This document shows positions 25,210-64,000 of a stretch of DNA of 64,000 bases, piece after piece. The stretch's first letter is position 1, and each line of letters starts with the position of its first letter. The notes below the pieces were generated by a model. It was not told where the DNA came from and did not search any database. It saw only the letters and a list, made by a program, of their open reading frames with translations. Source of the stretch: Cryobacterium lactosi (GTDB lineage: Bacteria > Actinomycetota > Actinomycetes > Actinomycetales > Microbacteriaceae); contig NZ_SOHM01000029.1 of NCBI RefSeq assembly GCF_004403945.1, positions 38,978 to 102,977 on the forward strand. The letters run 5' to 3'. A program made the position numbers and the translations under genes.

Positions 25210-25225
25210 GTTGAAGGGTGGAGAG

Positions 25226-25471
25226 ATGGCAATCACGGCATCGCAAGCGAGGGCTCAGTTGTTCCCGTTGATCGAGAAGGTCAATGAGGACCACATGCCC
25301 ATCGAAATCGTCTCCAAGAAGGGCAGCGCGATTCTGATGTCGCTGGCCGACTACGAGGCGCTCGAAGAAACCGCTTACCTACTGCGCTCCCCCGCCAACG
25401 CGGCGCATCTGCTCGAGAGCATCGCGCAGCACCGGGCCGGCTCAGCGAGCGCACGCGCGCTCGCCGAGTGA
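25226..25471 (+). CDS. yefM: Antitoxin of the Phd/YefM family
   Basis: An 81-aa antitoxin. The N-terminus MAITASQARAQLFPLIEKVNED and the following IEIVSKKGSAILMSLADYEALEETAYLL match YefM closely, including the DNA-binding first half and the Leu/Tyr-rich neutralising helix. The start is ATG at 25226 behind GGAGAG; the ORF can be read from further upstream, but this is the family start. It overlaps yoeB by 4 bases (GTGA). It neutralises YoeB and, with it, represses the operon. Confidence 0.93.
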   Translation: MAITASQARAQLFPLIEKVNEDHMPIEIVSKKGSAILMSLADYEALEETAYLLRSPANAAHLLESIAQHRAGSASARALAE

Positions 25472-25722
25472 TAATCGCTTTCACGGATGCCGGCTGGGAC
25501 GACTACCAATACTGGGTCACCACCGACCGGGCGATGGTGAAGCGCATCAACAAGCTCATTGCCGACGTGCAGCGCACCCCGTTCACCGGCATCGGCAAAC
25601 CCGAAGCCCTCAAGCATCAGCTCGCCGGCTACTGGTCCCGTCGAATCTCCGACGAGCATCGGCTGGTCTATGCGGTGGAACAGAACGAGATCGTCATCAT
25701 CGCCGCTCGGCACCACTACTGA
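25468..25722 (+). CDS. yoeB: Toxin of the YoeB family
   Basis: An 84-aa ribosome-dependent mRNA endoribonuclease of the RelE/YoeB fold. Family marks are FTDAGWDDYQYW at the start, KRINKLIADVQRTPFTGIGKPEALKHQLAGYWSRRISDEHRLVY, and the C-terminal IIIAARHHY with the catalytic His/Tyr. It starts with GTG within the yefM stop region, so it is co-translated at lower level than the antitoxin. Length equals that of E. coli YoeB. All key positions appear intact, so the toxin is probably active. Confidence 0.94.
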   Translation: MIIAFTDAGWDDYQYWVTTDRAMVKRINKLIADVQRTPFTGIGKPEALKHQLAGYWSRRISDEHRLVYAVEQNEIVIIAARHHY

Positions 25723-46596: not shown

Positions 46597-47169
46597 TCTG
46601 GCGAGAAGCCGCTCCGGTCCCCCGCAAGCGCGACCCGCAGACCACAGCTGTCATCTCGCCGAGCGTCATCCGGCAAGATAACAGTTCCGGGCCGCTGGTC
46701 ACTCCCCAGTGAGCCCACCTAATCAATCACGCGTCGCGCTGATCGCGGCTGGGCGATGTTGGTGCAACACCTTGTGGTCGTGCCGGAGGCATCTGTCGAC
46801 GGAGTGGAGCTCACTACGCTGGTTGCTGCTGTACCTGAACCATGACCACGACAAGATGAATAAGCTGGCCACCGACACCCTCCTTTCGGGCCATTGCGGT
46901 CGCTCCGGGCAATCCTCGGCGAGCCACTCAACAAGGACAAGTCTCGTCGGTGACGTCATCCGCATATGCTCGGCCGGCACATCGAAGCGGTTACTTACCT
47001 GCGGGGCTCGTCGGGAAGCGGGCCTAGATCTTCCGCCGGGCCTAGGCTGCTCCCGCCGAACAGGGAGTAATGCCATTTCTGCATCCATCTGGGCCGCGGA
47101 CCAGAAAGTCATCCCAGCCTGGACATTCTTTGGATGTCGCCAATAGAGTGACGCTGAGGGGTATTGAAG
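46597..47169. other. 573-base gap before the defence island
   Basis: No convincing gene. Two open frames cross it on opposite strands, but neither shows a protein-like pattern. It contains the 25-base sequence at 46693-46717 also seen at 34524. The base composition falls and becomes more mixed from about 46730, and the REP-like palindromes of the left side do not occur. It is the likely left boundary of transferred DNA. The last part includes GAGGGG, the ribosome site of the SRA-HNH gene. Confidence 0.5.
46693..46717. repeat. 25-bp sequence shared with 34524-34548
   Basis: Begins CGCTGGTCACTCC and ends AGCCCA, with 22 of 25 matches to the other copy. The TCACT/AGTGA pair here can form a short hairpin that is not preserved at the other site. 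Its nature is unknown. Confidence 0.45.
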
Positions 47170-48084
47170 ATGGCTAAATTCTTTGGGACACCGGCCGGGG
47201 TCAAGGTCGGCCAGTTCTTCATCGACCGTCGCGCGCTCCACGAAGCACTCGTCCACCGCCCGCCGCAGGCCGGCATCAGCGGAACCAAGTTAGAGGGCTC
47301 CGACTCGATCGTCATATCTGGCGGGTATGTCGACGACGAAGACAACGGCGATTACATCATCTACACCGGCCATGGCGGCAAAGACCCGAATAGTTCTCGT
47401 CAGATCGCGGATCAGTCTCGAGAGGCAACCGGAAATGCTGGTCTCATCACGAGTCATGCCGTAGCTCTGCCGGTTCGTGTCGTGCGAGGAAAGCACAAGA
47501 GTTCAGCGTTTGCCCCGCCGGCGGGTTTTGTCTATTCGGGTCTCTACTTGGTTACCCAATGGTGGATGGAACAGGGGCGGGACGGCTTCCAAATCATTCG
47601 GTTCCGGCTCGAGAGGATCGATGAACAGGTCCCTATTGAACCGCGATCGTTGAATCTGCCTGACCCGGAATTCGCTACAACGTTCGTGTCACGTCGGATT
47701 CGAGATTCGCAGTTGGCGCGTGAGGTCAAGAAGCTCTACGACTATTCGTGTCAGGTCTGCGACCAAGCAATCCCAACCTCGAACAACTCGTTCTACGCCG
47801 AGGGTGCTCATGTCAGACCGTTGGGGCGACCCCATCTGGGCGATGATGCTCTGACGAACATCTTGTGCCTCTGCCCAAACCACCACTCCCAGTTTGATCT
47901 GGGAGGACTCGTTCTCACCGACGATATGGAGGCCATTGAGACACGAACGATGACGCCGATTGCCAGCCTTTCCTTTCGCAAACACCACGTCGTCGAAGCT
48001 TCGAATGCCGGCTACCACCGGGCCCTTTGGCTGGGCACGCGTGGCCTGTCGAGCGACATGCGTGTGCTACAGCCGTCCGCATAG
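47170..48084 (+). CDS. SRA-HNH modification-dependent endonuclease (type IV-like)
   Basis: A 304-aa protein joining two domains. Residues ~5-155 are a YDG/SRA domain (GYVDDEDNGDYIIYTGHGGKD...), the fold that flips out and reads 5-methyl- or hydroxymethylcytosine. Residues ~190-265 are an HNH nuclease (YDYSCQVCDQAIP...EGAHVRPLGRPHLGDDALTNILCLCPNHHSQFDLGGLVL), with two CxxC-type zinc pairs and the catalytic His. Such SRA-HNH enzymes cut DNA carrying modified cytosine. The ATG at 47170 follows GAGGGG at 8 bases. It points toward the four-gene helicase-methylase operon, with which it converges. Confidence 0.92.
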   Translation: MAKFFGTPAGVKVGQFFIDRRALHEALVHRPPQAGISGTKLEGSDSIVISGGYVDDEDNGDYIIYTGHGGKDPNSSRQIADQSREATGNAGLITSHAVALPVRVVRGKHKSSAFAPPAGFVYSGLYLVTQWWMEQGRDGFQIIRFRLERIDEQVPIEPRSLNLPDPEFATTFVSRRIRDSQLAREVKKLYDYSCQVCDQAIPTSNNSFYAEGAHVRPLGRPHLGDDALTNILCLCPNHHSQFDLGGLVLTDDMEAIETRTMTPIASLSFRKHHVVEASNAGYHRALWLGTRGLSSDMRVLQPSA

Positions 48085-48233: not shown

Positions 48234-50498
48234 TCAGTTGTCTCCAAGGGATTTTAGTGTCTGATCAGTCGATCCATGAAGCAGCGGCGAGGCCTTGCCA
48301 GCCCACGAGATTACAAGCTCGTCCCGCGCACGGCTGGCCGCTACGTAGAGCAACGAACGCTCCCGCAACATCGCGTCCTCCAGCTCCTCTGGAGCGACGC
48401 CCTTGAGCGCCCAGGCGTTCGGAATCGACCCCTCCGAGACATCGAACAACAGCACGCGAGAGAACTCCATGCCTTTCGCCTTGTGCATCGTCAATACGAG
48501 TGGATGGCCAACAAAGCCGGCGCCTGGCTCGGTGAACGCTGCCGTTACTCCGCGATCGGCAAGCTGTTCCTTGAGCTTGAGCCCCTGGTTGCGAGATCGA
48601 GCCAAAACCGCCACCGTTTCGGGCGTGATGTCTTCATCAGCGAGCCAGCCCTTGAGCACCTCAGCGACCTTGTCGTACTGCCCATCGGCCGTGGTGGATG
48701 AGATCACGCGCGGGGACGGCCCGCTCCGCGACGAGCGGTACCCGTGCTCGTTCTCGTCGTTCCCGTCGCTGTCAACGAATTCGCCTCCTTCCAGCACGCC
48801 AAGCGCGAAACGCAGGTTCTGTTGGGTAGTGCGGTAGTTCAGCTTCAGCCGACGCGAGCGGCCCGTGATCTTGATGCCATATCGCGACAGCACCACCGGA
48901 TGGCCGTAAATGCGTTGATGCGTATCCTCCGCGATGAAGAGGTCGTTCTTGCCTTCACCTGCCAATGCGCGCAGCAACTGCCAGTGCAGTGGCGTGAGGT
49001 CTTGGCCCTCATCAACGAGTACGTGGTCCGCAAGGCGTTCTGGGTTGGAGTGTTCCAGATATGCAGCCGCAATTGCGGAGACCTCCGCGAAGCTCAGCGT
49101 GCCCATGTGTCGGGCGGATTGTCGGTATTGATCGACCACGGCCCACACCTCCGCACGTTTGCGACGATCGAGCGCGATGCCTCTACCGGGCCGACGCACC
49201 TTGAAGTACTTTTCCTTGCTAGTCACCCGGTTTGGCAGAATCACTTGGAGGTACTCGCCCTCAAAGAACGACGCGTTCTGCAGCTGCTCTGGCAGGTCCG
49301 CCCCAGCGTCATCGATCGCTTCGCGCCAACCGGCATCGGTGCCGACGAGCGCCCCACGGGGTTCGATCGGCACTCCAAAGACATGCTCCGCAGCCTTTCC
49401 GAACTGCGCACCGGCGGTGTCACGAACGGCAACGGCGAGCGCATCGATGCCGCGCACAAGCACACCCGGCTTGCCCAGACCTTTGGCCCACGGGGTCTTC
49501 GGGTCAAGCCGTTCGAGATCGCTCTCTAGAGCAGACGAAAGGGCCTTCGTGAACGTAGTGAGCACGACCCGGGAGGCGGGGTTCGTCTCAGCCAACCGGT
49601 GTGCCCGGTGCAAGAGCACCACGGTCTTTCCTGTGCCTGCGCCGCCCGACAAACGGAACGCGCCATTGAAATCTTTCTCAACGTATGTGCGCTGTTCCGG
49701 GTGCAGGAAGATTCGCCAGGCGCCGAAGTCTCCGCCTTCGATAACCCGCCTCAATTCTTCGTCGTTCTCAATGAACGCAAACTGCATCCGTGCGGCCGGG
49801 TGCTGCAGGCCCTTCGCGATTCGCTCATCTTCTGTCTCGTCAGCTGTTGGTGGAGTCTCCTCTTCGGGCTCTGCTTGTTCAGTGGTGAACCCAAGGGCCA
49901 CCCGAATCTTCTCTACCGTGTCGCCCACGGCTAGCCCAAGCACCGCATCAATTTGCCATTGGTTCGCGAGGCTCTCCGACATCTGCAACAGCTCGTCTTC
50001 ACTCGTGGCAGCGAAGATTCTCCGCGCAGCAAGCTCATCGAAACCGAGCGTCATAGTCAGATCCGTCAGGAGGTACCCGTGCGTCGCGAGAAACGACTCG
50101 GCAGGCTTGTCCGGTTTCGGACCGGCCTGCAAAGGATTCGTAGGCTGGTCGCCAGCCGCCGGCATCCCTTCTTCGATGATCTCCGTGATGCCGTTAATCG
50201 GGTTGAAGTGCAACACTCGCGTTCGCGCACGCTCGATCGCTTCGTCGTGCGGCCACGTGCCGTCGTAGACGTAGATCGACTCGCCGTTCTTCTGATCGAG
50301 TTTGAACAACACGGCCCGCCAGAACTGATCGACTCGCCCAGTGCGTGCGCGCGCATCCGCGGCCTTCTGCATTGGCTCAATATGTAGCCCCGGGGAGGTG
50401 TCGTCTGTAGCCAATTTCTGCAGGAAGGCGAAGGACTTCGACTGCACGATCTTGTCGAGCTTCTGCCCCTTGAGCTTGGACATCACAATCTGTGGCAT
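48234..50498 (-). CDS. UvrD-type helicase with RelE-like N-terminal domain
   Basis: A 754-aa protein. Residues ~1-100 resemble a RelE/ParE toxin fold: SFAFLQKLATDDTSPGLHIEPMQ, then RTGRVDQFWRAVLFKL and YDGTWPHDEAIERA. Residues ~265-750 are a superfamily-1A helicase with Walker A GGAGTGKT (285-292), motif II LVDEGQD (DEGQD 496-500), LTMHKAKGMEF and LLYVAASRARDEL. A charged linker (EEETPPTADETEDE) lies between. It is last in the operon, 7 bases after the DUF1998 helicase. Families with this fusion exist; a toxin activity of the N-terminus is inference, since the catalytic residues of RelE are not obvious. Confidence 0.85.
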   Translation of the reverse strand: MPQIVMSKLKGQKLDKIVQSKSFAFLQKLATDDTSPGLHIEPMQKAADARARTGRVDQFWRAVLFKLDQKNGESIYVYDGTWPHDEAIERARTRVLHFNPINGITEIIEEGMPAAGDQPTNPLQAGPKPDKPAESFLATHGYLLTDLTMTLGFDELAARRIFAATSEDELLQMSESLANQWQIDAVLGLAVGDTVEKIRVALGFTTEQAEPEEETPPTADETEDERIAKGLQHPAARMQFAFIENDEELRRVIEGGDFGAWRIFLHPEQRTYVEKDFNGAFRLSGGAGTGKTVVLLHRAHRLAETNPASRVVLTTFTKALSSALESDLERLDPKTPWAKGLGKPGVLVRGIDALAVAVRDTAGAQFGKAAEHVFGVPIEPRGALVGTDAGWREAIDDAGADLPEQLQNASFFEGEYLQVILPNRVTSKEKYFKVRRPGRGIALDRRKRAEVWAVVDQYRQSARHMGTLSFAEVSAIAAAYLEHSNPERLADHVLVDEGQDLTPLHWQLLRALAGEGKNDLFIAEDTHQRIYGHPVVLSRYGIKITGRSRRLKLNYRTTQQNLRFALGVLEGGEFVDSDGNDENEHGYRSSRSGPSPRVISSTTADGQYDKVAEVLKGWLADEDITPETVAVLARSRNQGLKLKEQLADRGVTAAFTEPGAGFVGHPLVLTMHKAKGMEFSRVLLFDVSEGSIPNAWALKGVAPEELEDAMLRERSLLYVAASRARDELVISWAGKASPLLHGSTDQTLKSLGDN

Positions 50499-56500: not shown

Positions 56501-56940
56501 GCGTTCATCGGGTAGAGGATAAGCGCCTTGATTCCCTCGACGCCCTCGCGCTTGGCGCGCAACACGTGGTCAAGGATCGGGTGGAGGAAGGCCTCCGTCT
56601 TACCGGAGCCAGTTCCGGTGGTGACGAGCGTCGGCAGCGGGCGAGGTTTTTCAGCGCTCAGGTCCGCGCTGCTGAGCCGTGCAAAGGCCGCGGCCTGGTG
56701 CCCGTAGGGCGGGAAGCCTTCGTACCAGTCGAGTGTCGAACGCCAGCCGCCCTCCGCGGGCTTGAACGGCAGGCGCAGCCGCACGTAAGGGCCCTTGAAG
56801 ATCCCCCGCTCCGGATGCCGCAGAAAGCGATCGAGCGCCACGCGAGCGTCCTCATCGGCGAGGGCAAACGTGGTGGAGAGGTAGTCGACGAGTCCGTCCC
56901 GCACATCCTCCGCCTGAAGGGTCGGGAGCAGTTCGCTCAC
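50506..56940 (-). CDS. DEAD-helicase + DUF1998 + nuclease-like domain (DrmA/DrmB-like fusion)
   Basis: A 2144-aa protein. It is a superfamily-2 helicase of the YprA/MrfA type with Walker A TGTGSGKT (108-115), DEFH (238-241), SATLGDKG and the C-lobe LEMGIDIGDLSTVFLAGLPR / RVGRAGR near residue 1110. Several cysteine pairs follow (around 997, 1420 and 1540, e.g. CDTCQTPVPG and CPDCGYARDV). The DUF1998 (MZB) cluster DCPCQHEGRNACHRCLLPF is near 1682. Near 1800-1850, RPDFVLEAVGGGATPLAIY then TDGRAFHAT resembles a Vsr/DUF559-type nuclease. DISARM DrmA and DrmB together correspond to this protein. It overlaps the methylase gene by 4 bases. Confidence 0.85.
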   Translation of the reverse strand: MSELLPTLQAEDVRDGLVDYLSTTFALADEDARVALDRFLRHPERGIFKGPYVRLRLPFKPAEGGWRSTLDWYEGFPPYGHQAAAFARLSSADLSAEKPRPLPTLVTTGTGSGKTEAFLHPILDHVLRAKREGVEGIKALILYPMNALANDQARRLTELITTSPALGGVRAALYTGQSGPTRSTVTADGLITDRAAMHAEAPDILLTNYKMLDQLLLRPADQALWKQSASSLRYLVLDEFHTYDGAQGTDVAMLLRRLGLALKRNWPDAHPDIDDAARARPLGLITPIATSATLGDKGDPTLMVDFANTVFGDDFDDESIITETRLSLEDWSAGAQESLADRGLQHRPVDAALVTELIDAVAALGEQHRDAETLAATVFATLYSEGSKPNAAEAFADATPELMLAAAQGHPFILDLCEAASDAVSIDTLAVALFPAGLRTTESIEQRDAARESFLVAVIAALSHVRAVAGRSAASVDLHLWVRALTRLDRYAGPTVGYDWSDDGGIEERENDDPFSVEGRAKFPAIYCRHCGRSGWGVQLGPVGFDLDHSDIDIRRNHANSSARFRALIYAPREADQQEQAAADDESKTEGLFWFDVQQRHLSLEPPHDEEAVQAVTDVLPVLTLMGDDADEASHNDVCPNCQKADGIRFLGSAISTLLSVSINTIFGDRHLDATEKKALVFTDSVQDAAHRAGFVQSRSHVFSLRNAIRDAIGEGVSTLDDVAEELLRRAGDDNFLRYRLLAPDVVDRDSFSSFWIEDSARNVPARTMRLVRKRLKFDLAMEFGLQSRVGRTLELTGSVAAEVDAGPETRLEAIGRATVRDFETAGFVDEDSDGEVATVDVVRWVRGVLERMRERGSIEHEWFRKYIENNGERWHVWGGRPRGEGMPAFPKDREAPAYPRVGSAAALKGARDSNLDQATSSQGWYAVWARKVLGVTASDGAKLTKLLFVELEKSGIILSAPIGASGAIAYQLSPSRILVAPIALVELEAARNLLECDTCQTPVPGTATVVDQLGGGPCMVARCRGTLRPVAGKANYYRGQYNDGEIRRVVAREHTSMLKDEVRLEYEDGFKAAIERPDAPNVLVATPTLEMGIDIGDLSTVFLAGLPRSVASYLQRVGRAGRLTGNALTMAFVVGRGEQLPKLGDPLSVINGEVRPPATYLNAEEILRRQYIASIVDRLAAEGLIPGVAHARDVLAKTEGTAFLATVIDDAEANAIDRLEAFLATFDHLSEWAVETLRSWSMPGVEPRTSGIASTLIASSARWNGEIENLRLRKKAIVESLPELEAAAGHPAASEDDKVAFRAAKASLGMVIRQSSDLYDEHWVGALERFGVLPNYTLLDDSVRLDVALSWIDPDSQEFQHDAITYERGAGIAINELAPGATFYAQGVEIFIDAVDLGSEGSRVQTWVFCPDCGYARDVMVPMDGDAAKGAASCPRCGSKGIADANQKFDVAELEQVSAEVRRDESTISDRRDERQRERFTVQIAADIDPANVARQWFVEGTNFGVKYLRELTIRWVNLGKVAGAGVPRMVAGEEHSPPLFRVCGACGKLDQKGDVNTAREHRPWCRYRKSKDEHARQLALSRTLTTQGVVLRLPSAVTVGDGLGLPSLSAAVQLGLREVIGGDPDHLRLVTIVEPVLGDEVNNIALLIHDAVPGGTGYLADLADQGNVRDILERAWRIVADCPCQHEGRNACHRCLLPFAPGGDLGRVSRASAERHLRTILGVDEHGDAAPWIVTQIDPGSQDPESILEQWFRKVFMDRARALGATIKEIPGAWGNTIRLTLPGSKHQWALTPQPLIGKTRPDFVLEAVGGGATPLAIYTDGRAFHATTAHNRIADDASKRRYLRAQGYGVMAITWDDIKRADQGTAEPAASWFDRDLAASMVNQFGLSPSALDHVTANPITQLMDWLQDPAAAQDRWRRVAHALPMLTLPGSFVEAVVSAEALVGRAADVLNGAVPASSNLPYAWQLVRESVVMASRYSGSGDATEVVVMLDDRPSALAHTNYADAWRLWLRLSNLLGAADVTRLGEIMAMSEVHDYAPQFGAVDIVVNAALSAEWAAALEFADGDERDLLSQLAVWPDMGVPTIGIEVADGIPVGIAWEIEQVAVALGLEDGDRAELEAAGWVIVEPNIEAVVAALGTGK

Positions 56941-59900
56941 GAGCGCTCCGCCAGGATCTTCTCGAAGTGCGTGTACGCCTGCCGCATGTCCGCCTCACGG
57001 TCGAGCGTGATAAACGGCAATTCGTACGTATATGTGTTTCCAGCGGCGTTGGTCTTGGTGCGCGCTTCGTGATCGATGCGCTCCCCCCTTGAACGCCATA
57101 CGGAGAGCACCGAATTAGGCACCAGGCGACCGTTAAAATCATAGAAGGAAACATTGCGATCGTAGCCGTACAACACTGCGAACTGCGTTCGATAGACCGT
57201 GCACAACTCATCTGCGGTCACCCCCAGCATGAGCGCGACCAGTGCGTCGACCTCGACAAGCAGCTGCCGACGGTCAGACGCTCGGCGTATTGGCGTTCGC
57301 GAGGTCCAGACGCCTTCGACTTCTCCCATTAAGGGTCGGTTCGGATACTCAAGGCCGCCCGCCCAGCACTCATTCAGGAACCCAGGATCGAATCCTTCGG
57401 ACCAAAGGCGCGCGTATGCGCCGGTAAGCGCATTCTGGCGGAGCACCCTGAGCGCAATGCTTGAAAAGAGCAAATGGTCACTACTCACCATCGACAGTTT
57501 CGTCACCACCCCACGGTTCACGGTGGATGGGTCCGTCGCGCGCACCGCGAAGTCGTTGATGAGGGACTCCAGCGACGCGGTTGCTTGAATGAGACCGGCG
57601 GCCGATGACGCGCCCGCGCTCATGACCGCGTTCACATGCGTCGCCCCAGGCGGAATGATTGTTGGGATTAGCGTCCGCTCATTCTTACTCGCGGCCATGT
57701 TTCTCCATGCGACACGGTAGTGGGCGCGGGCAGGCTCTCGGTTGGCACCCCAGTGCGTATAAGCGGCGGCGAACTTCTCGGGATCTACTGCAGGCTTGTA
57801 GGAAGTGACCGGAAGTGCGTCGAATTCTAGTGTTTCAAGGTCGGTCGCTGACCAGTCCTGATTGTGGAGCATCGTCTCGTTGGGCGACTTATTGAAAGGC
57901 GTTGCCACAAACATGTGAGGCCCTTGGAGAATCGCCTCGCCCCAAGAAGGAGCTACGCCCCACGCGACATCGAAGTATCCCTTCGTGCGATCACTCTTCT
58001 CGTGCCAGCCTGCGGAGAACTCGAGTCCCAGATCACCGATTCGACGGCTATGCGAGAGCTTCTCGAGCACAGCTGCAGTTTCTCGATTGACGGCATAAAC
58101 CATTCGTGCCTGCCGAACCGGAACATCGTCTCCCTCAAGCAAGGCGTGCCAAGTCTGAAGAGTGTCGTCGGTCACCGTTGTGATGCGATTTCGGTGGGGA
58201 CGCACGTCCCAGTTCCCCTCGCGATCTTTTAGACCGGGTTCCTCACCGGACCCGTTGTGGAGGTATGAACGGTCGACTACGTCGGGGTGGTACAGATAGG
58301 CCGCCATCTCGAATTTGGGAGCGGCTGCCTCATGCCCATAGACATGAATTCCAAACGATGCCTTGTCGTCAATCTCGAAGAGAATTCTCTCGTTTAGGAA
58401 ATGCCAGTGCCGGCGCAGCCGCGAATAGGCCGATGCACGGAAGAGACCTGCCTTTTCGTCTGTGAAATGCGTCTCGGGGTGAATTAGTGCGCTGGCGCCT
58501 CGCTCGCTTCGGTGCCTCCACGCCTGTTCTATGAAGCACAGATAGAGGTTTGGCTGCATTTTTGTGACGTGCGGGTACTCAGTAGGTGATCCTGCAAAAG
58601 CCGCAATTACCGCAATTTCGCTGGTTCCGTCGATCACGAGATTTGCCACCCCGACGTGCGCAAGCGTCTCGTTTCGCTTCACAGCGATCTGAGCCTGAGT
58701 TGGCTTCACCGTGAGCTGCCACCAAGGGTCGCCTTCAGCAAGTAGGGCGTCCACGTCGGATCGAGGCCGCACCCACGGCGGATTTCCCACCTGAAGGTCG
58801 AAACCGCCCCCCGCGAAAACCGTGGCGAAGTCCAGCTCCCAGTGAAAGAATCCCTGCTGGGCGGCTATGCGTTCGGAAACGGCGAGCCAAGGGTAGGCGC
58901 CGATTGCCTCCTCAATTGGCGCCACCATGGCGAACGCGAGCTCATTGTCCTCTGCCGCGCCAAGCTCAGACCACTGGTTCGAGAGGCCAAGCGTCGTCTG
59001 ACCCTGAGCGGCAAGCTTGGCCTTAACCTCGAAGTGAGTGCCAAGAAGGGCCGTGAGACCGGCGATCCACACGTCCAGACTCGGTGGCTGAGCACCCTGC
59101 GTGAGGGTATCCGTGAGCGGCCAGAACCAGAGGGAGTTCCACGCGTCCATCACACGGCGAAGACGCTGATAGGCGCCGTTGGCGTCAGCGAGTTTGCGCT
59201 CGATTTCTTCACGACTCACGTGAGGTGAGGTCTCGCCAGGCTCGACCGCAGCGGAGACAGCTCCCCAAAGTGGAATTTGGCGGCGAATCTCGCGCTCGGC
59301 AATCTCGAGACGGCGGAGGGCGAACTGCCAGAGCGTCTCCACTCGGTACGACAGATTCACGAGCTGGTCGAGCTGCTTCTTCGTCGGCTTGGCCGCGATC
59401 TGACGACGCCATGCCTTGAGGGCGGCAAGCGCCTCGGGCGCAAGTTCCTTAGCCTCCTTGGCCTCGACTGCGCTGCCCCAGCCCTCGGCCGGAAGGAGGA
59501 AATGGTGGATGGATCCAGCGATACCCGAGGCGATCTTGCCCTCGCGAAGGTCGGTCGCGAGGTCCGACACCGGCACGTCGCGCGGCACGGCCTTGAGCCA
59601 CGCCTTGGAGTTCACTTGGTCGCGGCTGTAGACCGCACGGCGAGAACCGATAAGAGAGTTACCACGCTTGAGGTGGAGCCCGAACCAAGGGGCTTGCAAG
59701 TCCTCAGACATGGTGTCGAGCCAGAGCGAGATCTCCGCAAGCTCAACGGCAGTTCCATTGAGGTCGACGCCATAGACCTGGTGAAGGGCGATCGAGGCCT
59801 TCACCTTCTGCAGTTCCCGCGGGTAGGCATCCGGATCAGTCTTTTCGCCCAGTTCGGCCTGCCGGCGGCGCAGATACTGATCGGCCAGCTGCCGCACTGC

Positions 59901-61643
59901 CTCGAGGGCGAATGCACCGGAGCCGAGCGCCGGCTCACAAACGGTGAGTTCGAGAATCTCGGCGGCCGTCGTGGTTATGCCGTTCTGGTCCAGGAGTTCT
60001 TCGAGCGCCTGCGAGACTGTAAACCGAGTGAGCACTTCGGGTGTGTAGTAGGAGGCTGACTGCTGGCGCTCCCGGCCGGCTAGCCGGAAGACGAAGCTTC
60101 CCTGCGGGTGAATTCGGGCGCGCGTCTCACCCGTGATGGGGTGCGTTTCCTGCACGAAGTCCTTGGGCTCGATGCTTTGTGAGCGTTCGACGGGCACGAC
60201 CCAGGAGCCCTTGTCGGCGTTGCCGTCTTTGGCCACCTCGTAGAGCTCGGTCTCGGCAAAGAAGCCCGTGTACGACATGAGACCTTCGTAGACGGCGCCG
60301 AGCTGGTTAATCCCCAGGTCTGCGTAGCTAATGAAGCCGCGGTCGCGGCCCTTCTGTTCCTTGCTCAGCAGCAGGTGAGCGAGAACCTCCTGGAGCTTGG
60401 CGTCGCTCAGCTTCACCTCGTCGATGTGGGCAGTCGCCTTGGGGAGGAAGAGGTCAGCGCGCAGGCTGTTGAAGACCAGGCCGTCGCGGAGGTCGGACGC
60501 TTCGGAGGGGGTCTCGATAGGCTCGGCCAGCGACCGGTTCGTAACGCCATGTCCCCGATCTACGAGGCGAAAGAGCACCGCCAGGGACTCATAGAGATGA
60601 GTGCCGTTCTCGCCCTGTTCGGTGGCGAGCTTGACGAGGGTCAGTTCGCGGAGGCGGTCGAGGCTGTAGCCCTCCTCGTATTCGCTCGCTCCGACGGGCA
60701 GAACGTTGAGTTCTGGCGAGGCCTCGGCGTAGAGCAGAAACAAGATTCGGTACAGGAATCGCAGCGACTGCTTCGCGAGCGTCTGAGCCTCGCTACCGGG
60801 CAGCGGTTCCAGGCCCTTCCGGCGGCGCCGCGCTACCACATCGTTCGCGATGATCTCGATTGACAGCCGCACGCCCTCACGCAGGTCCTGAGAGACACCG
60901 ACCGTGTGCTTGATCGACTCTTCGAGCACCTGGGACCACCAGATGTCACCCTCCGCATCAGGGGCCAGCGACTCGGCCGACACGCAGGTGAGCGCACGAT
61001 CAATCTCGCCACCCTTTTTTGCATCGTTGCGGGCGACCACCAGTTGCAGGTCGACAGCGAGGTAGCGTCCCTCTGCCCACCGCTCCCGCTCTGCGACGAG
61101 GAGCCACTTCCCGGCGAGGACCAGAGCGAAGATGGGCCCGTCATCCTCGACAAAGATGGTGGAGAGCAGCCGCGCGACCGAGGAGATCGCGTGCTTGTCG
61201 TTGTCGTCAACCTCGAACGGAACCAGCAAGGTGTCGGCATCCCGAGCGAGCAGGTCTTCGAGTGTGTCGACAGGGCGGGCCTCGATGACCACGAACGGTG
61301 AACCGTCGACGAGGCCGGGCTGGGTTACGCGCAGCAGCGGTCCGTTCCGGTCGAAGTGATAGCCGCCGCCGGTGAATCCGAGCACTGTGATCAGAGGACC
61401 GTAGATCTCGTCACGAATGGCCAGGTCGCCATAGCCTGGCGGGAGTGCCGCCAGGCGTGTCTCGAGCTGGGCGCGCATCGCGGTGAACCGGGCCCGCACC
61501 GACGGGGTGCCCTCCGCATCCTGCTCGTCCCATTCCTTGCGACGCGCCAGCGCACGAGCTTGGAACGACTGGGCCTTCGCATCCGTCGTAAAGAAGTGGT
61601 CGCTCAGCCAGCCCTCACCGATGATGATCGCTTCATCTGACAT
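56937..61643 (-). CDS. PglX/Eco57I-type adenine-specific DNA methylase (DrmMI-like)
   Basis: A 1568-aa protein. Residues ~55-300 are a helical/nuclease-like N-terminal region of the type seen in Eco57I-like enzymes. The SAM-binding motif I is EPALGSGAF (570-578) and the catalytic motif IV is NPPW (954-957), so N6-adenine methylation is expected. The C-terminal ~500 residues are the likely target-recognition region (NWDVRPHRNRITTVTDDTLQTWH...). The ATG at 61643 lies 3 bases after the helicase stop, and its own stop region overlaps the next start. Length and context match DrmMI or PglX; a methylase without a separate nuclease subunit fits DISARM or BREX better than a classical system. Confidence 0.92.
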   Translation of the reverse strand: MSDEAIIIGEGWLSDHFFTTDAKAQSFQARALARRKEWDEQDAEGTPSVRARFTAMRAQLETRLAALPPGYGDLAIRDEIYGPLITVLGFTGGGYHFDRNGPLLRVTQPGLVDGSPFVVIEARPVDTLEDLLARDADTLLVPFEVDDNDKHAISSVARLLSTIFVEDDGPIFALVLAGKWLLVAERERWAEGRYLAVDLQLVVARNDAKKGGEIDRALTCVSAESLAPDAEGDIWWSQVLEESIKHTVGVSQDLREGVRLSIEIIANDVVARRRRKGLEPLPGSEAQTLAKQSLRFLYRILFLLYAEASPELNVLPVGASEYEEGYSLDRLRELTLVKLATEQGENGTHLYESLAVLFRLVDRGHGVTNRSLAEPIETPSEASDLRDGLVFNSLRADLFLPKATAHIDEVKLSDAKLQEVLAHLLLSKEQKGRDRGFISYADLGINQLGAVYEGLMSYTGFFAETELYEVAKDGNADKGSWVVPVERSQSIEPKDFVQETHPITGETRARIHPQGSFVFRLAGRERQQSASYYTPEVLTRFTVSQALEELLDQNGITTTAAEILELTVCEPALGSGAFALEAVRQLADQYLRRRQAELGEKTDPDAYPRELQKVKASIALHQVYGVDLNGTAVELAEISLWLDTMSEDLQAPWFGLHLKRGNSLIGSRRAVYSRDQVNSKAWLKAVPRDVPVSDLATDLREGKIASGIAGSIHHFLLPAEGWGSAVEAKEAKELAPEALAALKAWRRQIAAKPTKKQLDQLVNLSYRVETLWQFALRRLEIAEREIRRQIPLWGAVSAAVEPGETSPHVSREEIERKLADANGAYQRLRRVMDAWNSLWFWPLTDTLTQGAQPPSLDVWIAGLTALLGTHFEVKAKLAAQGQTTLGLSNQWSELGAAEDNELAFAMVAPIEEAIGAYPWLAVSERIAAQQGFFHWELDFATVFAGGGFDLQVGNPPWVRPRSDVDALLAEGDPWWQLTVKPTQAQIAVKRNETLAHVGVANLVIDGTSEIAVIAAFAGSPTEYPHVTKMQPNLYLCFIEQAWRHRSERGASALIHPETHFTDEKAGLFRASAYSRLRRHWHFLNERILFEIDDKASFGIHVYGHEAAAPKFEMAAYLYHPDVVDRSYLHNGSGEEPGLKDREGNWDVRPHRNRITTVTDDTLQTWHALLEGDDVPVRQARMVYAVNRETAAVLEKLSHSRRIGDLGLEFSAGWHEKSDRTKGYFDVAWGVAPSWGEAILQGPHMFVATPFNKSPNETMLHNQDWSATDLETLEFDALPVTSYKPAVDPEKFAAAYTHWGANREPARAHYRVAWRNMAASKNERTLIPTIIPPGATHVNAVMSAGASSAAGLIQATASLESLINDFAVRATDPSTVNRGVVTKLSMVSSDHLLFSSIALRVLRQNALTGAYARLWSEGFDPGFLNECWAGGLEYPNRPLMGEVEGVWTSRTPIRRASDRRQLLVEVDALVALMLGVTADELCTVYRTQFAVLYGYDRNVSFYDFNGRLVPNSVLSVWRSRGERIDHEARTKTNAAGNTYTYELPFITLDREADMRQAYTHFEKILAERS

Positions 61644-61646
61644 GCG

Positions 61647-64000
61647 TTACTCCCCCGTGCCGTTCTCATCTGTGAAATCTTGTGGAACCACAACGAGCAG
61701 TGGGCGCACCAACTGCTGGTGTGGCTTCATCGACTCGGCCATCAACCGCTCCTGCTCCACGGTTACGCGGCGCAACTTCAAGTCCTTGACCTGTATGAGT
61801 GCGTTGGCGTCTTCCTCCCACCGGTCAACGCGGCTCGACCAGCGATCGATACGTTGCTCGATGGAGGTCGCCGAAGCATCCGAGAATTGGTCCGCGAGGG
61901 CTCGGGCGGCGCGAACGGCCGGCGCGATGAGCCGTTGCAGGCTGTCTACCGTGACCGGGCCGTGGTTGATCGCCTTTGCACCGGTGAACCCGATGGTTTC
62001 AAGAGCCTCGTGGGCGGTACCGTGGGCGGTCGGCAGCACAAACTCCGGGTTTGAGGGGTCGGGAATCTGAGCCGTGATGTATGAGCTGGCGACCACCTGA
62101 CCACGACGGTTCGTGAGTGTGGCGAACAGCAGCACGGTGGGCGCGTCCACGTCACCGCGCACGGCGAACACCTGGTTGCGTCCCAGGTTCGACAGGGCAC
62201 GGTCACTGGCCCACTCCAGCACGGGATGCAACGGGCCGAGGTAGTGCGCCTCGGGCCACAGTGACGTGCTGGCCTTGTTGTCCCGAGCATCCTGCAACAG
62301 CGCCTTGCCTCGCTGAGGGGAGACGACCAGCTTGAGCTCGTCGATGACATTGCGATCACGTAGGTAGCTCTGCGGTAGCACCTCGAGGCGCTGGGCGAGG
62401 TCACGGGTGGGCGAGAGTGAGACCAAGCCGTGGTTCGGGTATTCGTGCCAGTTCACACCGTTGTCGGCGACGGATGCTGCGGGAGTGGCGAAGGTCGCCT
62501 GAAGCGCTTCGCGGAGGAAGGCTGTGTCGTCGGCGAAGAGGCCACTACCGGCATCCGTCGCACCGGATGCCGCGGCGCTCGGCTGTGTCGAACCCTGACC
62601 GGCGGCAAGTCGCGCCAGCAGAGCGCCGATACTGTCGCCGTTGTCGATCACGTGATCGGGAGTGGGTACCGCCTCATCGAGGTTCTTCTTGCCGGCGAGC
62701 ACCTTGCGGATTTCGTCCTCTTCGACCTTGGCGTCGTACTTGCCCATGAGCGATGCGGCGTCGCCGAGGGCGCTGTGAGCTTCATGCTCGCGCTCGAGCA
62801 CGCGCTTCAGCACGCGGATGTCCCCGGCGAACTTGTCGTTTGAGGGGTCGAGCAGCAGGGTCGTGATCTGCGGGCGTTTCTTCTGGCCGTACCGGTCGAT
62901 GCGACCGTTGCGCTGCTCGATGCGGATGAGGCTCCACGGAATGTCAAAGTGAATCAGCTCGTGGCACTGGGAGTGTAGGTTGACGCCCTCGGAAGCGACA
63001 TCGCCGGTGATGAGCACGCGGATCGGGGATGAGGACTGCTTGAAGCTCTCAACGATTTCCTGCTGCTCAACGTCGGTCAGGCCGCCGTGAAGGACTCGAA
63101 TCTGGTCGTCTTTGAGCTTGAGGTCGGTGAGCAGCTTGGCGCGGAGCCAGTGCAGGGTGGCGACGCGTTCCGAGAAGACGACGGCGCGCTCAGTGCCCTT
63201 GCGGCTGACATCGATCGATTTGAGGTACTCGACGAGCCTCATGTACTTGGCCGAGGGCGCGGAGAGGGCCGCATCCGACAGGTCGGAGAGGTACGCGAGA
63301 GCTTCGCGCTCTCTGGCCTGGCCCCCGTCGGCAGGCGGGGTTACCTTCCTTAGCCGTTCCTTGACCGATTCCTTGAGTGCGGCGGGTGACGACAGGAATG
63401 CCTTTGCGAGCGTCCAGGGAAAGAGGCTGCCGTTGTCGCCCGAGTACGGAGAAGAACCATTTTCGGGGTGGAGCCAGACGTTCGCGAGCTCATCGGCTGC
63501 CGCGTTCTCGGCGGGTGAGGCATCGACGAGGAAGTGCTGAGGCGGCATCCGCTCTGCCCAGTCGGCGCCGACTTCGCGCGCGACCTCTTCACTATGGCGG
63601 TGCCGTCGGATGATGAGACGTTTCACCTCGGACTCGATGATCTCGCCGTCCGGGGTCACAGCGGTGGGTTCGAGCAGGCGGATGAGTTCGGCGAAGGATT
63701 CCTTGTTGCCGTTGTGCGGAGTGGCACTTGCCAAGATCAGGGCTTCGGTGTTTGGCGCGAGGACGCGCGCGAGACGGTTGTTGAGGGTCTTGCCGGTGAT
63801 GTTGTGCGACTCGTCGATCACCACGGCATCCCATTTGTACTTCGCCAGGTGGCTGCGGTATTTCTCCTGCTTGAGCGTGTCGATCGAGATGATGGCGCGC
63901 TTGTAGAGGCTGAAGGGGTTGCGAGTGGCAGGGAGTTTTTGGCGCACGCGTTGGATGCCGACGGAGTCGAGGCGCACGAACGGAAGCGCGAATCGCGTCC
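61647..64000 (-). CDS. SNF2-type helicase (DrmD-like), 5' end outside the window
   Basis: The frame stays open to the window edge, so the N-terminus with Walker A is missing. The visible 784 codons contain motif II AVVIDESHN, motif III ILASATPHNG and the C-lobe RVLITGDVASEGVNLHSQC, and motif VI RIEQRNGRIDRYGQKKRP. This pattern is typical of the HepA-like SNF2 helicases, including DISARM DrmD. The ~350-residue C-terminal region has no helicase motifs. It is the first gene of the visible operon part; the methylase starts 3 bases after its stop. Confidence 0.9.
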   Translation of the reverse strand, partial: TRFALPFVRLDSVGIQRVRQKLPATRNPFSLYKRAIISIDTLKQEKYRSHLAKYKWDAVVIDESHNITGKTLNNRLARVLAPNTEALILASATPHNGNKESFAELIRLLEPTAVTPDGEIIESEVKRLIIRRHRHSEEVAREVGADWAERMPPQHFLVDASPAENAAADELANVWLHPENGSSPYSGDNGSLFPWTLAKAFLSSPAALKESVKERLRKVTPPADGGQAREREALAYLSDLSDAALSAPSAKYMRLVEYLKSIDVSRKGTERAVVFSERVATLHWLRAKLLTDLKLKDDQIRVLHGGLTDVEQQEIVESFKQSSSPIRVLITGDVASEGVNLHSQCHELIHFDIPWSLIRIEQRNGRIDRYGQKKRPQITTLLLDPSNDKFAGDIRVLKRVLEREHEAHSALGDAASLMGKYDAKVEEDEIRKVLAGKKNLDEAVPTPDHVIDNGDSIGALLARLAAGQGSTQPSAAASGATDAGSGLFADDTAFLREALQATFATPAASVADNGVNWHEYPNHGLVSLSPTRDLAQRLEVLPQSYLRDRNVIDELKLVVSPQRGKALLQDARDNKASTSLWPEAHYLGPLHPVLEWASDRALSNLGRNQVFAVRGDVDAPTVLLFATLTNRRGQVVASSYITAQIPDPSNPEFVLPTAHGTAHEALETIGFTGAKAINHGPVTVDSLQRLIAPAVRAARALADQFSDASATSIEQRIDRWSSRVDRWEEDANALIQVKDLKLRRVTVEQERLMAESMKPHQQLVRPLLVVVPQDFTDENGTGE

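Follow-up and report, generated by a model that had tools for sequence, protein, structure and literature searches.

The 64,000-nucleotide stretch of Cryobacterium lactosi DNA analyzed here (contig NZ_SOHM01000029.1, positions 38,978 to 102,977; "the window") contains an operon on the minus strand with the gene order armA-armB-armC-armD, in which armD is the final gene. The features are as follows:

61647..64000, minus strand: ArmA, a DrmD/BrxHII-like SNF2 helicase, the gene being cut by the window end
56937..61643, minus strand: ArmB, a PglX/Eco57I-like DNA methyltransferase with an NPPW motif, 1568 aa
50506..56940, minus strand: ArmC, a YprA/DruE-like DEAD helicase with an MrfA zinc-binding domain, 2144 aa
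48234..50498, minus strand: ArmD, a RelE-fold domain followed by a GajB/UvrD-like SF1 helicase, 754 aa
50163..50498, minus strand: RelE-fold domain of ArmD, residues 1-112, predicted from the AlphaFold2 model, fold searches, profiles and conservation
50376-50378, 50316-50318 and 50247-50249, minus strand: putative active-site codons E41, R61 and H84
49887..50093, minus strand: small helical region of ArmD, residues about 136-204, predicted from pLDDT and secondary structure
48279..49727, minus strand: UvrD/GajB-like SF1 helicase of ArmD, residues about 258-740

The open reading frame at 48234-50498, described in the initial annotation as a RelE-like domain fused to a UvrD helicase inside a defence operon, is real: it opens with ATG and encodes 754 aa on the minus strand, and stop codons are present when the same interval is read on the plus strand. 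The genes are tightly packed, with 3 bp between ArmA and ArmB, an overlap of 4 bp between ArmB and ArmC and 7 bp between ArmC and ArmD. ArmA has a full length of 987 aa, as read in the neighbouring stretch (L021:625-3588). Matches in Pfam, NCBIfam and PADLOC characterize ArmA as DrmD/BrxHII-like, ArmB as Eco57I/type IIG-like, ArmC as DruE-like with an MrfA zinc-binding domain and ArmD as UvrD/GajB-like. The translation of ArmB contains GNPPW and matches the Eco57I and MmeI methylases of Pfam, and a Pfam scan of the ArmC C-terminus past the MZB domain, using the sequence alone, named no Vsr match. This arrangement corresponds to ARMADA type II, a system defined in a 2025 preprint (Bell et al., bioRxiv 2025, PMC12458937), whose available text gives the order BrxHII-like, PglX-like, YprA-like and then GajB-like helicase, and describes the fusion of a RelE-like domain to a GajB/UvrD-like helicase as typical of this type. 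A Vsr-type nuclease at the C-terminus of ArmC is a further feature of the type. Judged from its sequence, armD belongs to an anti-phage operon of ARMADA type II, and the claim of a defence operon is supported. As the layout is the published one, the RelE plus helicase architecture is already known, and armD adds a new member to it, here from another host and with 30% identity to an E. coli relative (L032). The armD-like gene of L032 was matched in 525 of 5,426 complete E. coli genomes, 518 of which have one place with at least 80% coverage.

No antitoxin gene adjoins armD, which is flanked by ArmC (7 bp) and, at a distance of 149 bp, by a convergent gene on the plus strand (47164-48084) for a protein with SRA (SAD_SRA 1.1e-41) and HNH (HNH_2 8.6e-8) domains, possibly a type IV restriction enzyme directed at modified DNA. 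Since these two are the neighbours and no GajA is found beside armD, the locus was rejected as a Gabija system. An intact pair of a YefM-type antitoxin (Phd_YefM 9.3e-18) and a YoeB toxin (YoeB_toxin 9.5e-40) is encoded elsewhere in the window (25211-25722, plus strand) and offers a natural yardstick for the RelE domain of ArmD. Past the window end, upstream of ArmA, a reverse transcriptase (L021:5455-8436, minus strand) matches the PADLOC model RT_UG5-nitrilase with 2.2e-290, and the ARMADA operon may therefore lie in a larger defence island. A tRNA-anchored island was dismissed, since the window, L001 and L021 contain no tRNA according to ARAGORN, and so was a phage origin, since the 113-aa domain had no tblastn match up to E 1 in 50,697 phage records.

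Structure prediction and fold searches showed that residues 1-112 of ArmD form a predicted RelE-superfamily domain. The AlphaFold2 model, based on 53 aligned N-termini (the window and 52 relatives), reached a domain pLDDT of 89.7 and a pTM of 0.83. The top Foldseek matches were YoeB/ParE 6n90, YafQ and YoeB, with a probability of 1.00 for 6n90 and YafQ, a best E of 1.2e-3 and no match at or under 1e-3. With VIA-align the best match was T. thermophilus RelE (2khe, Z 8.8, rmsd 2.3 Å over 82 residues), and by title ranks 1-47 (Z 8.8 to 4.7) comprise RelE, YoeB, YafQ, HigB and ParE toxins, further toxin-antitoxin complexes, Txp40, Cami1 and the H. pylori proteins HP0892/HP0894; an unrelated title comes up for the first time at rank 48. 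Searching 177,635 PDB sequences with the profile of the 53 N-termini placed RelE-superfamily toxins in the first seven of nine positions (best 2khe, 2.3e-4; YoeB, 1.4e-3), followed by a GntR regulator and a flagellin at chance level (E 0.57 and 0.67). Prediction, fold searches and profile searches thus agree on the RelE-like N-terminus that had been proposed from three motifs, all of which do lie inside residues 1-100, and the predicted fold is not one unrelated to RelE. The C-terminal helix is followed in the AlphaFold2 model by two extra strands (residues 94-98 and 105-109).

The kinship can be narrowed further by profile-profile comparison with toxin sets that were gathered by family from 149 genomes each (YoeB, 14 of 26 loci taken; ParE, 30 of 30; HigB, 21 of 30; seven mis-extracted sequences then omitted), the ParE matches being divided by eye into RelE-type (n=9) and ParE-type (n=19) sequences. 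The probabilities of 95.5% for RelE-type, 91.6% for HigB, 51.4% for YoeB and 0.3% for ParE-type sequences showed that the domain is nearer to RelE-type, HigB and YoeB toxins, and the gyrase-directed ParE-type toxins (0.3% versus 95.5% for RelE-type) were rejected as nearest kin. The domain sequence of the window alone brought up no RelE family in Pfam or NCBIfam and a single sub-threshold Pfam match (NA-iREase3, E 0.012), and the single-sequence Pfam matches of ten domains tried were all under the curated cut-offs; relatives are therefore needed to reveal the RelE kinship. The toxin groups could not be told apart by the net charge of the domain. In Actinomycetota the domain profile matched 29 of 296 genomes at E up to 1e-4, in long open reading frames and also in numerous short ones of about 85-190 aa, taken here to be free-standing toxins.

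Conservation was read from a residue table of 80 rows (79 loci and the window), drawn from relatives that scored 120 bits or more in BLAST and are at least 600 aa long. Among 361 relatives 80 were taken into the relative listing, and 15 that failed to match a Walker A text pattern were omitted, including L092, L009-L018 and L071, the last with an ArmC-like gene beside it. L019 and L094, which lack RelE, L090, whose N-terminus is truncated at a contig end, and L070, whose start is doubtful, were set aside to give a set of 76, window included, and L093, with Asp at position 84, was further omitted for a set of 75. The set of 76 holds close pairs; at 70% identity 65 sequences are left and the picture is unchanged.

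In the profile-profile alignment with YoeB (probability 51.4%) E41, R61 and H84 of ArmD align with E46, R65 and H83, and D85 with Y84; a second alignment, of the profile with S. aureus YoeB, pairs the same Glu, Arg and His. In YoeB, E46 is the general base and H83 the general acid, and E46, R65, H83 and Y84 are essential, as stated in the accessible part of PMC12620021. Three of the four essential positions are kept in ArmD, and most of the RNA-cutting residues of the domain apparently are intact, as far as the sequence can tell. R61 occurs in 76 of 76 relatives; position 84 is His in 71, Arg in four and Asp in one (L093), and position 41 is Glu in 46, His in 23, Lys in six and Gln in one. Conserved residues of catalytic type are therefore found across the homologues (R61 in 76/76, H or R84 in 75/76, E, H or K41 in 75/76). 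The equivalent of YoeB Tyr84 is Asp85, which is kept in 67 relatives, and that of RelE Tyr87 is Ile88 in the window, a position with Tyr in 55 and Ile in 15 of 76. By column entropy R61 and R55 (the latter in 73 relatives) rank on top, H84 about fourth and E41 about 19th; the five most conserved residue columns include R61, R55 and H84 but also, at similar rank, A91 and A87. All four members with R84 are from Streptomycetaceae and carry Lys or Gln at 41 and Tyr at 88, a RelE-like set; they form one clade and may represent a single event.

The pattern E..R..R..H occurs in 12/13 YoeB, 12/17 HigB, 5/9 RelE-type and 4/19 ParE-type sequences (shuffled 3.3) and in 47/76 ArmD domains (shuffled 9.7), and the signature S/T-x-R-V..R in 13/13 YoeB, 14/17 HigB, 2/9 RelE-type and 2/19 ParE-type sequences (shuffled 2.1) and in 74/76 ArmD domains. 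The loose pattern E/H/K..R..R..H/R, present in 75 of 76 ArmD domains versus 35.6 after shuffling, discriminates poorly and is weak evidence. The motif R..R..H-D/E-x-A/G is found in 69 of 76 ArmD domains versus none of 58 YoeB, RelE-type, ParE-type and HigB sequences. Equivalents of R61 and H84 are more widespread in the superfamily, as inspection by eye showed for some of the ParE-type sequences.

That an SF1 helicase follows the N-terminal domain is confirmed by Pfam (UvrD_C 5.8e-22, UvrD-helicase 2.8e-18) and in PADLOC by NERD+UvrD (5.6e-26) and GajB (3.6e-24). K291 of Walker A and D496/E497 of Walker B are invariant in alignment A4, which comprises 50 of 57 contig loci (alignment A3, 52 of 57). 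The full-length model (pLDDT 89.0, pTM 0.83) contains a low-confidence linker between the RelE domain and the helical region (residues about 111-130, mean pLDDT 55-59), which may be flexible and let the RelE domain move; an antitoxin-like role is one conceivable function of the helical region (residues 136-204). In three of five further UvrD relatives scanned (L010, L019 and L094) a NERD nuclease domain precedes the helicase, and the scans of L092 and L093 gave no NERD-type match at this place. Although the numbers are small, NERD in the place of RelE favours an effector over mere docking. Within the fusion, tree distances of the RelE part and the helicase part are correlated (r 0.83, Mantel p 0.001, 75 sequences), as expected if both parts were inherited together.

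An ArmC-like gene adjoins RelE-UvrD in 36 of the 75 loci (the window, 27 loci, L037 and seven others), with weak or partial calls among the 27 in L033, L079 and L089 (116 to 122 bits) and a call in L068 that depends on a 197-aa piece placed by clustering; the neighbour script picks the longest open reading frames and errs in GC-rich genomes, and L037 has matches to ArmA, ArmB and ArmC. Type III restriction-modification clusters lie at most 12 kb upstream on the same strand in 17 of 75 loci. Two of the methyltransferases were scanned and match the PADLOC type III model, one near full length and the other in four stretches, and the two partner nucleases carry the annotation BPTD_3080 family restriction endonuclease and have only weak matches to type III restriction enzymes. 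The combination of a type III-like restriction enzyme, a type III methyltransferase and RelE-UvrD recurs in L034, L035, L039, L072, L078, L097, L100 and others, sometimes with a small extra gene in between; in L035 the methyltransferase gene and RelE-UvrD overlap by one base. In three loci DISARM DrmA/DrmB are found beside the fusion, directly upstream in L067 and, by sequence cluster, in L091, and on the opposite strand in L082. DpdE/DrmD-like and DrmMI-like genes are located upstream in L095, and a BrxL gene near RelE-UvrD in L038. The other loci of the 75 are either unassigned or offer too short a stretch upstream.

Two further neighbourhoods were observed. On a Thermus plasmid (L038:1-9425) and in a Meiothermus MAG (L085:1330-11419) RelE-UvrD lies downstream of a common three-gene set, whose L038 annotations are vWA, tubulin-like and hypothetical, with BrxL between the set and RelE-UvrD in L038; in L085 PADLOC matched none of the three genes at E up to 0.001. 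A Tsukamurella plasmid (L029:17097-18890) has a second annotated UvrD-helicase gene after the armD-like gene, with an overlap of 4 bp. In open-licence PMC text beyond PMC12458937, including the accessible part of PMC7251935, we found no account of RelE-UvrD with type III restriction-modification or DISARM.

With the mRNA interferases YoeB, HigB and RelE, ArmD shares the fold and the equivalents of E46, R65 and H83 of YoeB, and with YoeB and HigB also the S/T-x-R-V..R signature, but it is fused to a helicase, has no antitoxin, carries Asp for Tyr84 of YoeB and adds two strands after the C-terminal helix. Cami1, the CARF-RelE effector of type III CRISPR systems, likewise ties a RelE-fold domain to a sensor in a defence system (structures 8phj and 8phb, VIA-align Z 6.5 and 6.0 to the ArmD domain), but its sensor is a cyclic-oligoadenylate CARF domain, whereas that of ArmD would be a DNA helicase; a predicted CARF-RelE protein is described in the accessible text of PMC7293037, and our search of open-licence PMC text for Cami1 with RelE and the ribosome returned no paper. 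In the defence helicase CnuH of CoCoNuT, according to the accessible part of PMC11090510, a RelE/colicin D-like fold was likewise found, by structure alone and without sequence conservation, whereas ArmD keeps both a sequence profile and the active-site positions. Gabija GajB and the NERD-UvrD helicases are SF1 kin of ArmD, which has RelE in place of NERD.

We put about even confidence in the reading that ArmD is a conditional RNase on a DNA-sensing helicase, tethered and self-limiting rather than a free suicide toxin. ArmA and ArmC would open foreign DNA that is unmodified or replicating, the helicase would load on it, and methylation by ArmB would mark self. Loading might then license the otherwise restrained RelE domain as a local or conditional ribonuclease, whose targets could be mRNA under translation or ribosomes close to the phage DNA, or else RNA encountered on that DNA. 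With the activity tied to a DNA-bound complex the harm would be local and the cell would survive. The operon layout, the fold, the profiles, the conserved positions, the E..R..R..H counts, the co-inheritance, the swap with NERD and the non-abortive phenotype speak for such an RNase; against it stand the rank of E41 (about 19th), Asp85, Ile88, the lack of an antitoxin gene, the YoeB probability of 51.4%, the wider occurrence of R61 and H84 in the superfamily and the weak loose pattern.

The same replacement of Tyr84 by Asp85 would fit a degenerate RelE fold without catalysis, retained for docking or for binding nucleic acid, by which ArmD would be attached to ArmC or another subunit. The motif ending in H-D/E-x-A/G (69/76 in ArmD versus 0/58) could then be a docking surface, and the non-abortive phenotype of E. 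coli ARMADA II, as given in the accessible text of PMC12458937, would be compatible as well. However, R61, R55 and H84 rank in the top five conserved columns, even if A91 and A87 are placed equally high and E41 comes no higher than about 19th, position 41 varies only among Glu, His and Lys with one Gln, and the Streptomycetaceae members carry the RelE-like set of K or Q41, R84 and Y88, though as one clade. We consider docking rather doubtful.

It is unlikely that ArmD is a true abortive toxin, with the RelE domain cutting mRNA or rRNA cell-wide after foreign DNA has been sensed, so that growth stops. The fold shared with Cami1, itself a precedent, and the conserved active-site positions would suit it, and the accessible text of the preprint reports that ARMADA cells were still lysed at the highest MOIs, though this does not point specifically to an abortive toxin (PMC12458937). 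According to the same text, infected E. coli cells with ARMADA type II remained intact and viable in dye assays and the authors term the mechanism direct and non-abortive, and the ArmD mutants it reports concern the Walker motifs only (PMC12458937). The suggestion of the initial annotation that the N-terminus could act as an abortive effector is so far without support and has evidence against it. Least probable is a RelE domain that has turned into a nuclease for DNA or hybrids and assists the helicase in cis: the NERD domain, of DNA-nuclease type, that precedes related helicases (3/5 scanned) and the DNA modification and restriction genes as partners (ARMADA, type III restriction-modification, DISARM) point in this direction, but RelE-type chemistry requires the ribose 2'-OH and we know of no RelE-fold DNA nuclease.

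Returning to the conditional RNase, the occurrence of the same fusion near type III restriction-modification and DISARM genes suggests a general effector that may have been recruited by several modification-based defences. More tentatively still, RelE-UvrD could be a portable effector of DNA-modification-based immunity, in ARMADA II, in the type III restriction-modification-like operon and at DISARM-type loci, whose live RelE site acts in cis, so that the DNA-bound helicase would aim the ribonuclease only at transcripts or ribosomes on the invading DNA. A predicted RNase toxin, as the preprint names the domain, is hard to reconcile with the non-abortive system described in the accessible text of PMC12458937, and the residue map obtained here (E41, R61 and H84, with R84 in Streptomycetaceae) makes this conflict testable by point mutation. 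The other genomic settings and this residue-level test add to the published description and place the fusion in a wider setting than the published one. If the portable, cis-acting effector is real, a classical toxin fold would have been turned to non-abortive, target-restricted immunity.
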